Below, piece after piece: positions 2,239 to 6,854 of a stretch of 64,000 nt of DNA. Location: NCBI RefSeq assembly GCF_013114835.1, contig NZ_JAAVLW010000005.1, positions 372,001-436,000 on the forward strand. Reading direction: 5' to 3'. The stretch's first letter is position 1; each line of letters opens with the position of its first letter. A program made the translations under genes and the position numbers. The DNA is from Bradyrhizobium archetypum. Its GTDB lineage: Bacteria; Pseudomonadota; Alphaproteobacteria; Rhizobiales; Xanthobacteraceae. The notes under the pieces were generated by a model. That model searched no databases, was not told the origin of the DNA, and worked only from the letters and a program-made list of their open reading frames with translations.

Positions 2239-2871
2239 CTACGAGGCACCCCACTCTGAGGGGGCAGCCCCAGCCATGCCGAGCAGCATTCGCCGATATG
2301 CTCGGTTGAATGCCACGACCGCGCGTATCGCATTCAGCGTGCTCTCGACCCAGGATGTGGTGAATTCGGCCTGATCATATTTCGTCAAGTCGATGGTGCC
2401 GGTGGATTCGCCGTGGCGGAACACAAGCTGCGCACCGAACTTGCGGGCAAGGGCCCGCATCGCTTCGTTCTGCGCGCCGGTGGTGATCCGCAGGCTATCG
2501 TACCCCTTGGCGCGGGCTTCCTTGATCAGCTTGCGAAACAAGATGCTGCCGACGCCCCGCCGCCGCACCGGTGCTTCGACGCTGAAGGCGACCTCGGGGA
2601 GCGAATCCGGCGACTGGTCCGGCGGATGCAGTTCGGCTGCGCCCCTGACCACACCGTTTTCAAAGAAGGCGATGATCGTCGTTCCATCATTGGCGCATTT
2701 CTCGGCGTAGCGCTCGACGAAGCTGTCGTCCATGAAGCCGTGGAAACGATCGCGGCGGCTGTTGCGGTCGAGCCGCAGCAGGTGATCGCGCAACAACGGC
2801 AACTCTTCCTGCTGGCTCAGCGTGCGCACGCTGGAATCGGCGAGCGCAGCCGCAATAACGGTGAGGTACAT
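2239..2871 (-). CDS. GNAT family N-acetyltransferase
   Basis: The 210-residue protein has the GNAT acetyl-CoA-binding motif A: VEAPVRRRGVGSILFRKLI at about residues 98-116, of the R/Q-x-x-G-x-G/A type. A short strand-helix segment (about 120-145) follows it. The N-terminal part (DRNSRRDRFHGFM) resembles the entry segment of alphaproteobacterial stand-alone GNATs. The ATG at 2871 has GAGGAG about nine bases upstream. The acceptor substrate is unknown. It is divergent from the AraC gene at 3132. Confidence 0.85.
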   Translation of the reverse strand: MYLTVIAAALADSSVRTLSQQEELPLLRDHLLRLDRNSRRDRFHGFMDDSFVERYAEKCANDGTTIIAFFENGVVRGAAELHPPDQSPDSLPEVAFSVEAPVRRRGVGSILFRKLIKEARAKGYDSLRITTGAQNEAMRALARKFGAQLVFRHGESTGTIDLTKYDQAEFTTSWVESTLNAIRAVVAFNRAYRRMLLGMAGAAPSEWGAS

Positions 2872-3131
2872 AGTCCAAAACTCCTCTCAGAAAGGCCCTT
2901 CGAGGAGGCGTCCGAATCCCTAGGCCACCTATATTGTGCGTTGCAGCATCGAATTCAAGGCCGGATTACTCCGTCCACTGCCTTAAATGAGAGCAATGTT
3001 TGCAGGGATTTAGCTGGCCCGCCATTAACCAATTGTTAAGACTGATGGCCCGGCGCAAAGTGGAGACTGGGCCGGTTTTTTGAGTGGCCAAGCCCAAGCA
3101 ACAGACTCCGGATGGTGCGTGGAGATTCGTC

Positions 3132-4085
3132 GTGGCTATCGTGCTCGACACGAGTTCTTGCCGTCCGGAGCGCCGGCTCGCGCTGTGGCAAGACATCGTC
3201 TGCGACACCTTCGTCGGCCTCGACTGCAAATCCGATATGCGCAGCGCGTTCTGGGGCTCGGTCTCGCAATCCAGGGTCGGAGCAGTATCGCTCACCCAAG
3301 TCGATTCCACCGCACAGCGGGTGTTCCGCACGCCGTCGCGAATAGCCCGCGCCAGCGAGGATTTCGTGCTGATGGCGCTTGGCAATAACGGCGTGAACAG
3401 CGTCTTCCAGGACGGCCGCGAGGCAATCGTGTCTGCGGGTCAGTTCGTCATCTATGACACCACCCGCCCCTACGAGCTGCGCTTCGACGACAGTTTTTCA
3501 CAGACGATCTTTCAGATGCCGCGCAAGCTGCTGCAACAACGCGTCGGCGCGTTCGACAGTTTGACCGCGACGACGTTTGCAGCCGATCGTCCGCTCGAAC
3601 GGCTGACCTATGATTTCGCGCTCAATGTGAGCAAGACAATCGAATTGGTCGAGCCCGCAGCCGCACGCCGGTTGCTCGACCAGACGCTCGATTTGCTCGC
3701 GATGACGCTTGCCGACAGGCTGCACGCACGCTTGCCGGACCAATCGGCCCACCGCTCGGCGCTGCTCTATCGATTCAAGAATCATATCCTGACGCACCTC
3801 GCCGATCCCGAGCTATCGCTGCCGCGCGCCGCGGCGGCGACAGGAATCTCGCCGCGTTACGCCAGCGATCTGATGGCGGCCGAACGGACCTCGTTCCGCA
3901 GCTACGTGCAGGCGCAGCGGCTCGAGCGGTGCAAGCGTGATCTTGCCGATCCCGCCCACCAGGCCCGGCACATCGGCGAGATCGCCTTCGCCTGGGGCTT
4001 CAACGATCTCGCCCATTTCAGCCGCATCTTCAAGCAGCGCTTCGGCGTCTCGCCGCGCGAATGGCGCGAACGCGCGGGCAAATAG
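3132..4085 (+). CDS. AraC family regulator of the aldoxime/nitrile cassette
   Basis: The N-terminal half (about residues 1-190) resembles the AraC-binding-like domain of FeaR-type regulators. The C-terminal 100 residues hold two HTH motifs, including IGEIAFAWGFNDLAHFSRIFKQRFG, the classic AraC signature written here only in part: IGEIAFAWGF then FKQRFGVSPREWR. GTG at 3132 is preferred because GGAGA at 3121-3125 sits six bases upstream; an alternative GTG at 3084 adds 16 residues. It lies directly upstream of, and in the same direction as, the nitrilase and aldoxime dehydratase genes. AraC-type regulators accompany such genes elsewhere, so it probably activates them in response to an aldoxime or nitrile. 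Confidence 0.85.
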   Translation: MAIVLDTSSCRPERRLALWQDIVCDTFVGLDCKSDMRSAFWGSVSQSRVGAVSLTQVDSTAQRVFRTPSRIARASEDFVLMALGNNGVNSVFQDGREAIVSAGQFVIYDTTRPYELRFDDSFSQTIFQMPRKLLQQRVGAFDSLTATTFAADRPLERLTYDFALNVSKTIELVEPAAARRLLDQTLDLLAMTLADRLHARLPDQSAHRSALLYRFKNHILTHLADPELSLPRAAAATGISPRYASDLMAAERTSFRSYVQAQRLERCKRDLADPAHQARHIGEIAFAWGFNDLAHFSRIFKQRFGVSPREWRERAGK

Positions 4086-4238
4086 CGTTCTCCTTCCCGT
4101 CACGTCGCACGCGCCTGACGCTGCTTCGCGCTGACCACCTGCCGGTTAAGACAAGTTTTCGTTCCGCCGCGGACAAGCGGCGCGCGCCGCCGTGGCGGTA
4201 GGCTCGGTATCGGCAAGCGTCAGTCATCAAATGCGGGG

Positions 4239-5261
4239 ATGGATGCGATGGGTCTGGTTCATCAGAAATATAAGGTGGCGGTGGTTCAGGCGGCGCCTGT
4301 TTTTCTCGACCTCGACGCCACCGTGGACAAGGCCATCGCGCTGATCGGGGAAGCGTCCGCAAAAGGCGCCAAGCTGATCGCGTTTCCCGAAACCTTCATT
4401 CCCGGATATCCGTGGCAGATCTGGCTTGGCGCGCCTGCCTGGGCGATCGGCCGCGGCTTTGTGCAGCGCTACTTCGACAATTCGCTGGCCTACGATAGCC
4501 CGCAAGCGGAAAGGATCCGCAATGCCGTAAAGCGCGCTAGGCTCACCGCCGTGCTCGGACTGTCCGAGCGCGACGGCGGAAGCCTCTACATCGCGCAATG
4601 GCTGATCGGCCCCGACGGCGAGAACATCGCCAAGCGCCGGAAGCTGCGTCCGACCCATGCCGAACGCACCGTATTCGGCGAGGGCGACGGCAGCGACCTC
4701 GCGGTCCATGATCGCGCCGACATCGGACGGCTCGGCGCGCTGTGCTGCTGGGAGCATCTGCAGCCGCTGTCGAAATACGCGATGTACGCCCAGAACGAAC
4801 AGGTGCATGTCGGCGCCTGGCCGAGCTTTTCGCTGTACGATCCGTTCGCGCATGCGCTTGGCCATGAGGTCAACAACGCCGCCAGCAAGGTCTATGCGGT
4901 CGAAGGCTCGTGCTTCTTCCTCGGCCCCTGCGCGGTCGTCTCGCAGGCGATGATCGACGAGCTGTGCGATTCCCCTGAAAAACATGCATTCCTGCACGTC
5001 GGCGGCGGCCACGCCGTGATCTACGGGCCGGACGGCGCTTCACTGGCGGAGAAACTGCCGCCCGACCAGGAAGGCATTCTGTATGCCGATATCGATCTCG
5101 GCATGATCGGGGTGGCGAAGAACGCCGCCGATCCGGCCGGACATTATTCGCGACCCGACGTCACGCGGCTATTGCTCAACAACAAGCGTGCCAACCGCGT
5201 CGAACATTTCTCGATTCCCGTCGATGCCGAGGTCATGAGCGAGATCAGGCTGCAGGCCTGA
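4239..5261 (+). CDS. nitrilase (aliphatic/arylacetonitrilase type)
   Basis: This enzyme of the nitrilase superfamily hydrolyses nitriles to carboxylic acids and ammonia in the cytoplasm. All catalytic residues are present: Glu51 in FPETFIPGYP, Lys135 in RRKLRPTHAER, and Cys170 in CCWEH; a second conserved Glu follows at 142. At 340 residues it has normal nitrilase length and the extended C-terminal region that follows the Cys motif in true nitrilases. ATG codons at 4239 and 4248 are both possible starts, with a GGGG run just upstream. The aldoxime dehydratase gene begins 27 bases after its stop, so the two very likely form an operon in which this enzyme removes the nitrile made by its partner. 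Confidence 0.93.
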   Translation: MDAMGLVHQKYKVAVVQAAPVFLDLDATVDKAIALIGEASAKGAKLIAFPETFIPGYPWQIWLGAPAWAIGRGFVQRYFDNSLAYDSPQAERIRNAVKRARLTAVLGLSERDGGSLYIAQWLIGPDGENIAKRRKLRPTHAERTVFGEGDGSDLAVHDRADIGRLGALCCWEHLQPLSKYAMYAQNEQVHVGAWPSFSLYDPFAHALGHEVNNAASKVYAVEGSCFFLGPCAVVSQAMIDELCDSPEKHAFLHVGGGHAVIYGPDGASLAEKLPPDQEGILYADIDLGMIGVAKNAADPAGHYSRPDVTRLLLNNKRANRVEHFSIPVDAEVMSEIRLQA

Positions 5262-5288
5262 TACATCATTCTGACAAGGAGCAGGCCG

Positions 5289-6335
5289 ATGGAATCCGCG
5301 ATCCCTGCGCATCTGCGAACTGAACGCACGCGTCACCGCCGTGTCGGAGACGATTATGCGCCGCCCTACCCCTCTTTCGTGGCGCGGCACAAACCAAGTG
5401 TGACGCGGGTCGTGATGGCTTATTTCGGCATCCAGTCCCGCGGCGCGCTCAACGCCGCCGCAGAACTGGCGTTGGCTCGGCTCACCTCAGCGTTCACTGC
5501 AGCCGACGGTCCCACGCACTGGGACCGCGCAAGCTATGTCGACGAGGCCGCCTTTACCAACATCGTCACGGTTGCCTATTGGGACCACCGGCAGAAGTTC
5601 GATCGCTGGTTTGCGGCTGCACGCGAGAGCTGGACCGGCGACCAGCGGACGAATGACGGATTCGGCACCTTCATCGAGGCGCTCTACCCTTCGGTGGAAG
5701 GCTATGAGACCCTGTTTTCTTCCCTCGGGAGACCCGAAGGCGTCGCTGTCCTTGCCGACGGCATGAGCGGCGAGGTCCTGGAGCACGCCTATTGGGGCGG
5801 CATGCGCGATCGCATCCCGCTATCCCAAACCAGCGAGATGGCGCCTTCAGGCGCGGCCCGCGCGATCCGCGACGGCGGACGGATCCGGATCATTCCGCAT
5901 GACAATGTCTGCCTGATCCGGTCGGGGCAGGATTGGGCTGATACCGAGGCCACCGAGCGCAAGATGTATCTCGGCGAGGTCGAGCCGGTGCTGCGCGAAG
6001 GCATGGATTTCCTTCGCGACCAGGGGCGTTCGATCGGCTGCTACGCCAACCGTTACATGACGGTCTTAGGCCCCAACGGCGCGAGAGCCGAAAAGTCCTA
6101 CGGCATGAGCTGGTGGAAAAGCCTATCGGAGCTGGAACGCTGGGCTGAATCGCACCCGACCCATATCAGGATTTTCGGCGCCGCCATGAAATACCTGTCG
6201 ACGCTCGGCCCGGCCGCAAAACTACGGCTCTACCACGAGGTCACGGTCGCCCGCGCCGACGAACAACTCTTCGAATATGTGGATTGTCATCCGCAAACCG
6301 GGATGCTGAACGCCGTGCAAGTGGTGGATGGCTAA
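5289..6335 (+). CDS. oxd: aldoxime dehydratase (haem-dependent)
   Basis: The 348-residue protein matches the Oxd family, haem enzymes that dehydrate aldoximes to nitriles. By position, His292 (in SHPTHIRIFG) would be the proximal haem ligand, and Arg173 (YWGGMRDRIP), Ser212 (CLIRSGQDW) and His316 (RLYHEV) the distal catalytic residues; these correspond to Arg178, Ser219, His299 and His320 of Rhodococcus OxdRE. A three-residue insertion lies between the two histidines. ATG at 5289 follows AAGGAGCAGG at an ideal distance. It is translationally close to the nitrilase gene, and its stop overlaps the stop of the convergent thioesterase gene by four bases. Confidence 0.93.
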   Translation: MESAIPAHLRTERTRHRRVGDDYAPPYPSFVARHKPSVTRVVMAYFGIQSRGALNAAAELALARLTSAFTAADGPTHWDRASYVDEAAFTNIVTVAYWDHRQKFDRWFAAARESWTGDQRTNDGFGTFIEALYPSVEGYETLFSSLGRPEGVAVLADGMSGEVLEHAYWGGMRDRIPLSQTSEMAPSGAARAIRDGGRIRIIPHDNVCLIRSGQDWADTEATERKMYLGEVEPVLREGMDFLRDQGRSIGCYANRYMTVLGPNGARAEKSYGMSWWKSLSELERWAESHPTHIRIFGAAMKYLSTLGPAAKLRLYHEVTVARADEQLFEYVDCHPQTGMLNAVQVVDG

Positions 6336-6730
6336 AGCACCATCTGCGTCTGCGTCACAATCGCCACCAGCTTGCCGTCCTCGGTCTCGAGCCGGGTCTG
6401 CCAGACTTGCGTGCGCCGTCCCCGATGCACCGGGGTGGCGGTGGCGATCACCGTCGAGCCTTCCTTGGCGCCGCCGATGAAATTGGTCTTGCTCTCGATT
6501 GTTGTGGTGCCGTTGGCATCCTCTGGCAGGTTGATGACGGTCGCTGCAGCGCCAACCGAATCCGCAAAGGCCATGATCGCGCCGCCGTGAATCGTGTTCC
6601 GCAGCGTGCAGAGATCCGACCTCACCACCATCTTCGCGACCACCCGATCCATGTCGGCTTCCGTGAAGGTCACCCCCTTCAGTTCCGCGAACGGCATCTT
6701 CATCGACTGGATCTTTTCGAGCGGCGTCAT
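6332..6730 (-). CDS. PaaI family hotdog thioesterase
   Basis: The 132-residue protein has the PaaI/YbgC-type hotdog core. The signature TLRNTIHGGAIMAFADSVG (about residues 41-59) contains the HGG turn and an Asp-bearing helix that supply the acyl-CoA thioesterase active site. The start is at 6730 because GGAGG lies just upstream; the frame extends further but without support. Members hydrolyse aromatic or medium-chain acyl-CoA esters in the cytosol. It is convergent with the aldoxime dehydratase gene, so it is not part of that operon, although a shared arylacetate context is conceivable. Confidence 0.85.
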   Translation of the reverse strand: MTPLEKIQSMKMPFAELKGVTFTEADMDRVVAKMVVRSDLCTLRNTIHGGAIMAFADSVGAAATVINLPEDANGTTTIESKTNFIGGAKEGSTVIATATPVHRGRRTQVWQTRLETEDGKLVAIVTQTQMVL

Positions 6731-6854
6731 TCGTCCTCCGGCAGTTCCTTGAAGTGATTTCCTGGACAGCATGGAGGCTGCCGGTAAATCAGGCAATGAC
6801 CTCCCAGGTAATGGCTGCCGTGACATGCGGCCAGGAATTCGGCATATCGTCGGC

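Follow-up and report, generated by a model that had tools for sequence, protein, structure and literature searches.

An aldoxime–nitrile cassette of Bradyrhizobium archetypum with its own AraC-type regulator and a candidate operator

A stretch of 64,000 nucleotides from Bradyrhizobium archetypum (contig NZ_JAAVLW010000005.1, positions 372,001 to 436,000; hereafter the window) carries adjacent genes for an AraC/XylS-type regulator, a nitrilase (nit) and a haem aldoxime dehydratase (oxd). They are very probably best explained as a chromosomal cassette for the aldoxime–nitrile pathway that has its own regulator, operator and nit promoter. Judging by their families, the haem enzyme would dehydrate an aldoxime to the nitrile, and the nitrilase would hydrolyze the nitrile to a carboxylic acid and ammonia. 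The two enzyme genes would form one transcription unit read from a promoter inside the 153-base gap between the regulator gene and nit. The AraC-type protein, as a dimer, is predicted to bind a direct repeat at 4150-4177, its halves two helical turns apart, just upstream of this promoter, and to activate it when a compound of the pathway is present. The likely use would be detoxification of, or feeding on, aldoximes or nitriles from plants or soil.

Genes, enzymes and distribution of the cassette

All three genes are on the plus strand and their reading frames are intact. The regulator gene (3132-4085, 317 amino acids) encodes a NitR-like protein that matches PF14525 (AraC_binding_2, N-terminal, 83 bits), PF12833 (HTH_18, 70 bits) and PF00165; an effector domain and a C-terminal double helix-turn-helix place it in the AraC/XylS family. 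Its GTG start is aligned in all 19 sequences in which the regulator gene and nit are read in the same direction (co-directional), the window included. The nitrilase gene (4239-5261, 340 amino acids) follows, and after it comes oxd (5289-6335, 348 amino acids). A preliminary description, made from the sequence and its open reading frames, had named this trio in this order and on one strand; reading frames and Pfam profiles bear it out, and the 27 bases that it gave between nit and oxd are exact.

The dehydratase belongs to PF13816 (278 bits against a cut-off of 25, residues 44-339). Its closest solved structures by sequence are 3w08 (339 bits) and 3a15 (328 bits), while 7f2y, which we take to be the phenylacetaldoxime dehydratase of Bacillus sp. 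OxB-1, is a distant enzyme (176 bits). The nitrilase matches PF00795 with 171 bits, and its closest solved relative is 6zby, NitA, with 423 bits. Column arithmetic on the alignment puts dehydratase residues Arg175, Ser212, His292 and His316 opposite positions 178, 219, 299 and 320 of 3w08, where Arg178, Ser219, His299 and His320 (OxdA numbering) are presumably the catalytic residues. All four are invariant in the 81 aligned sequences, and so are Glu51, Lys135 and Cys170 (within CCWEH) of the nitrilase, which we assume to be the Glu/Lys/Cys catalytic triad. The earlier statement that the catalytic residues of both enzymes are intact therefore holds for these residues, and the proposed chemistry, from aldoxime through nitrile to acid, is supported at the level of family membership. 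Substrates are a different matter. The dehydratase scored 409 bits against the 600 of the OxdA equivalog NF050090, and hence is not named OxdA; the nitrilase scored 223.7 bits against the 502.6 of the Nit6803-family equivalog TIGR04048. Because both cut-offs were missed, substrates cannot be transferred by name.

Locus counts below refer to the best 80 among 149 relatives that were found, all located through the dehydratase (the named loci; here and elsewhere, L numbers denote loci and G numbers genomes). By name, 76 were Bradyrhizobium, three were metagenome-assembled genomes and one was a record labelled Frankia. In all 80, nit adjoins oxd, and an AraC-type gene lies beside the pair in 79; it is missing in L044 and frameshifted in L088. 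Such constancy indicates that the grouping is not due to chance, and with oxd and nit adjacent, on one strand and next to an AraC-type gene, the layout is that of an aldoxime–nitrile cluster of the nitrilase type. The genome of the window (7.0 Mb, 35 contigs) has a single dehydratase gene and a single nitrilase of this kind. A search of it for a second close copy of the regulator found none, the next best protein being 31% identical, and no Rfam family matched anywhere in the window at its gathering score.

Of 242 genomes of the genus, 166 match PF13816, against 8 of 385 across the class (two of the same genus, two strong matches outside it and four weak ones), so the cassette is a usual feature of the genus. 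The class-wide matches include L140, where nit and oxd accompany an AraC-type gene that is divergent, and L139, with only oxd at 30% identity. A plasmid search matched 45 records, and no record held 80% of the cassette at a single location; the best among the 10 matches listed covered 30% and was a lone nitrilase gene. The record labelled Frankia sp. RB7 (L077) carries a typical Bradyrhizobium cassette of the divergent type, with 71% dehydratase identity and the same operator, which makes the Frankia label or the assembly doubtful.

A candidate operator upstream of the nitrilase gene

Alignment of the gap between the regulator gene and nit showed one block that is conserved whether the regulator gene is co-directional with nit or divergent from it. 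In the window this block is the 28-bp box GACAAGTTTTCGTTCCGCCGCGGACAAG at 4150-4177 on the plus strand, which ends 61 bases before the nit start. It consists of two identical GACAAG half-sites 22 bp apart, the first followed by TTTTCGTTCCG. We consider it the probable operator of the cassette regulator, because its halves vary for the most part in concert and in line with the type of regulator.

The box is the only match at up to three mismatches in the 7.0-Mb genome, and a reversed control matched nowhere in it. It occurs once in 79 of the 80 named loci, upstream of nit and on the same strand as that gene, the exception being L061. A degenerate pattern at up to two mismatches was matched in 155 of the 242 genomes of the genus, at a single site in each save G133, which has two; the reversed pattern gave one match in all 242. 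Box and PF13816 were both present in 133 genomes, the box alone in 22, the dehydratase alone in 33 and neither in 54. Inspection covered 21 of the 22 box-only genomes and 28 of the 33 dehydratase-only ones, leaving aside G091 among the former and G037, G072, G103, G190 and G197 among the latter. The box stood between an AraC-type gene and nit in 20 of the box-only genomes, whereas neither gene was present in G126; in the dehydratase-only genomes it was recovered at three mismatches in 27 and was absent in G189 (L186). The match of G126 and the second match of G133, with no regulator or nit alongside, were taken as chance. The pattern was derived from the named loci, and its presence there is therefore partly by construction, but its uniqueness over whole genomes is not.

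The two half-sites read GACAAG/GACAAG in 18 of the 19 co-directional sequences. Among the 60 divergent sequences they read GTCGAG/GTCGAG in 38 and GTCGAA/GTCGAA in 13. At an offset of +22 the halves match on average at 5.85 of six positions, and the next best offset (6 to 60, in either direction) gives 3.2. After removal of shifted copies of the operator, the loci held 1199 other sites made of six bases plus TTTT; five of these matched 5/6 at +22 and none 6/6. The two loci without the standard box, L061 and L186, have GCCAAC/GCCAAG in the same gap, again 22 bp apart, and their regulators are 84% alike but only 39% alike to that of the window. Thus, the version of the operator follows the version of the regulator in three groups. 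On the protein side, position 245 in the first helix-turn-helix is Ser in 19 of 19 co-directional and Asn in 57 of 59 divergent regulators, one of several near-fixed differences between the two main groups; by analogy with the MarA structure, this position may be one that reads the DNA.

For the nit promoter, TAGGCT (4199-4204, plus strand), 21 bp past the operator, is a candidate –10 element. Six hexamer forms around TAGRCT were picked after viewing the alignment, with TGATGT included for one divergent subgroup; one of them lies 21 bp past the box in 17 of the 19 co-directional sequences and 20 bp past it in the other two, and 25 bp past it in 52 of the 60 divergent sequences. A scan of 2800-6500 with the sigma-70 consensus found no promoter, which speaks against a promoter in the gap; together with the near-fixed spacing of the hexamer, it would suit a promoter that depends on an activator, although it does not prove one. 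Alternatively, regulator, nit and oxd could be a single three-gene operon with its promoter before the regulator gene and none in the gap. The single strand, the short gap and the lack in it of any terminator-like or sigma-70-like match (two terminator-like matches were found, both within nit, versus 2.8 in shuffled sequence) agree with such an operon. It is nonetheless improbable, since the gap contains a strongly conserved non-coding block and the hexamer at its near-fixed distance, and since a promoter of the regulator gene cannot serve nit in the 61 divergent loci.

Several observations weigh against this reading of the cassette and its operator. Related loci do not count as independent samples, and it was from them that the box pattern was built. 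The regulator falls below the NCBI cut-off of all 21 AraC-type equivalogs listed, the best being FeaR (NF007243, 155.7 versus 199 bits). Its match is split between frames in L088, L121 and L134, all of the divergent type; this is a frameshift, either of the gene itself or of its assembly. Half-sites are of mixed form in 9 of the 60 divergent sequences, and L122, L130-L133 and L135, loci that lack oxd or are cut, pair GTCGAN with GACGAG. Finally, L044 keeps nit and oxd with a box at two mismatches and has no regulator, and the outgroup L140, from another family, shows no clear repeat (its half-sites match 3/6 at +22, which does not exceed the match at +21). The last two points would fit a box bound by some other protein, or an AraC-type protein that is a repressor. 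Either is rather improbable, given that the version of the box tracks that of the regulator in three groups and that the box is nearly always single in a genome and, where inspected, beside the cassette regulator. For the same reason the dedicated AraC regulator proposed in the preliminary description now has stronger support than the sequence of one locus could give. In L044, which is Bradyrhizobium sp. dw_411 with nit and oxd at 3935-6041, one box mismatch falls within the first half-site and the other within the core.

Gene arrangements and insertion site

In the window the cassette is bordered on the left by a GNAT acetyltransferase gene (2239-2871, minus strand) and on the right by a hotdog-fold thioesterase gene (6332-6742, minus strand), both recognized by Pfam and both outside the cassette; the 3′-ends of the thioesterase gene and oxd share four bases. 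The order GNAT(–), regulator(+), nit(+), oxd(+), thioesterase(–) recurs in 18 of the 80 named loci. The regulator is divergent in 61, so the co-directional form is the less common one, and the two flanking genes were not found around these 61 loci within the retrieved stretches, some of which are short. L044 has the thioesterase gene next to nit and oxd; neither regulator nor GNAT gene was found there, and the upstream genes are others, including a DoxX-like one. In two co-directional loci, L042 and L065, additional DNA of about 1.2 and 1.4 kb, respectively, separates oxd from the thioesterase gene.

Protein trees rooted on L140 recovered the co-directional group as monophyletic, with support of 0.996 for AraC (a tree that omits one sequence shorter than 300 amino acids), 0.96 for Nit and 0.988 for Oxd; L044 falls inside this group on the Nit and Oxd trees. 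The regulator of L140 is divergent, and so is that of the first branch after it, which is L061 on the AraC and Nit trees and L102 on the Oxd tree. On the Oxd tree L061 instead adjoins the co-directional group, with support of 0.937. Since the co-directional loci are one group and the outgroup and the first branch are divergent, the arrangement of the window is probably derived from the commoner divergent form, a conclusion drawn with few outgroups.

The site of insertion can be recognized in other genomes. In 18 of 18 tested, the GNAT gene directly adjoins the thioesterase gene and the site has no cassette; these genomes were chosen by hand and include dehydratase-bearing ones with the divergent-type box, ones with nit only and ones with neither. 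It follows that the cassette entered between both genes in the clade of the window. This fits the description of the cassette as self-contained, for in one clade the trio was inserted between genes that are neighbours elsewhere. Three downstream flanking genes of the divergent-type site are together in the genome of the window with no cassette within the 14 kb retrieved, which fits relocation or a separate gain and loss.

Other features around the GNAT gene are also conserved. A DUF2161 putative PD-(D/E)XK phosphodiesterase (1033-1719) and a 100-amino-acid protein with no Pfam match (1848-2150) are kept beside it in the same 18 genomes. Upstream of the GNAT gene, on the minus strand, all 19 co-directional sequences show strong conservation of the segment 2872-2965, which includes the blocks ATATTGTGC and TCGAGGAGGCGT and is probably the GNAT promoter or leader.

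Inducer, function and relation to known clusters

The compound that would activate the regulator need not be the aldoxime. The core of the system could be regulator, operator and nitrilase, a nitrile-sensing device for detoxification or nitrogen scavenging, with oxd as an optional front end and a nitrile or an acid as the inducer. Seventeen uncut loci have the regulator, the box and nit with no oxd or remnant of it in the retrieved stretch, and their genomes are without PF13816; two of these loci (L121 and L134) have a frameshifted regulator. L125, L129 and L132, cut by contig ends at or just past nit, were excluded from this count. By parsimony the loci without oxd need 11 changes on the nitrilase tree, as repeated loss predicts, and removal of L132 leaves this number unchanged, although support within some groups of this tree is low. 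The NitR of Rhodococcus rhodochrous J1 is described as activated by isovaleronitrile or caprolactam in the portion of PMC6265244 that treats it. Conversely, the 17 loci were located through the box and so are not a random sample, and they show some clustering (shuffled labels need a mean of 16.1 changes and a minimum of 11; five loci are one clade). Expression in Bacillus sp. OxB-1 is induced by (Z)-phenylacetaldoxime (PMC4342420), an effect that could nevertheless be exerted via the nitrile formed. The spread of the 17 loci over the tree makes nitrile sensing a serious alternative to aldoxime sensing, and we regard it as plausible if somewhat short of an even call.

The preliminary description also raised the possibility that the pathway may yield auxin-like arylacetates and matter for the host. 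In this form the cassette would be an auxin module that converts plant indole-3-acetaldoxime or phenylacetaldoxime into indole-3-acetic acid (IAA) or phenylacetate. Sections of PMC8955678 lend it some plausibility: OxdBr1 of Bradyrhizobium is described as resembling, in the substrates it takes, OxdB and OxdRG, two enzymes that accept indole-3-acetaldoxime, and a nitrilase homologue of B. japonicum prefers mandelonitrile and phenylacetonitrile. The same source counts Bradyrhizobium among the genera richest in oxd and calls roles in plant interaction and IAA synthesis possible and unproven. However, 166 of 242 genomes is wider than one host interaction would suggest, and no tested feature links the cassette to symbiosis or hormones; we judge such a module unlikely. 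The pathway cassette with its own regulator and operator, put to use on environmental aldoximes or nitriles, remains the preferred reading.

The trio itself is not new, having been published for Bacillus OxB-1 and Bradyrhizobium (PMC4342420, PMC8955678). In OxB-1 the dehydratase, nitrilase and AraC-like regulator genes are in one cluster (PMC4342420), although its dehydratase is distant from that of the window. For both genera, PMC8955678 notes that a nitrilase and an AraC-family NitR are the probable products of two genes lying upstream of oxd. The nitR-nit-oxd cluster of Bradyrhizobium sp. LTSPM299 (OxdBr1; PMC8955678 citing Radisch et al. 2018) has the same three gene types in the same genus, and OxdBr1 and OxdBr2 appear among the studied enzymes in an excerpt of PMC11568032. 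The closest solved dehydratases, 3w08 and 3a15, come from Pseudomonas chlororaphis B23 and Rhodococcus (Table 1 of PMC8955678), whose clusters are said there to encode nitrile hydratase and amidase, whereas the window has a nitrilase instead. NitR-PnitA of Alcaligenes faecalis and Rhodococcus rhodochrous J1 is an XylS/AraC-type activator of a nitrilase gene, as proposed here, but its putative NitR site is palindromic and no oxd is named in the passages of PMC6265244 that describe it, while the window has a 22-bp direct repeat. No description of the operator was found in the literature searched, a body of text partial in places and to which the 2018 primary paper does not belong, so its novelty is uncertain. 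The cassette is a real and ordinary example of a known cluster, in a probably derived arrangement, to which the candidate operator is a useful addition.

A wider scenario can be put forward tentatively. The regulator would be a one-target switch of Bradyrhizobium that senses nitriles rather than aldoximes, and on at least two occasions its 22-bp direct-repeat operator would have been rewritten along with the protein, as the half-sites GTCGAR, GACAAG and GCCAAS show. The dehydratase gene would have been lost repeatedly, and the clade of the window would have moved the cassette and turned the regulator gene around, with the operator kept a short way ahead of nit.

The pathway is known, but its part in plant–bacterium relations is not settled; according to PMC8955678, mechanistic work on this cross-talk is for the most part missing. 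A precise candidate operator that is nearly always found once per genome across the genus opens the question of the inducer to direct reporter testing. The groups described here would also constitute a natural set of matched regulator–operator pairs in which to study how the specificity of AraC-type proteins changes.

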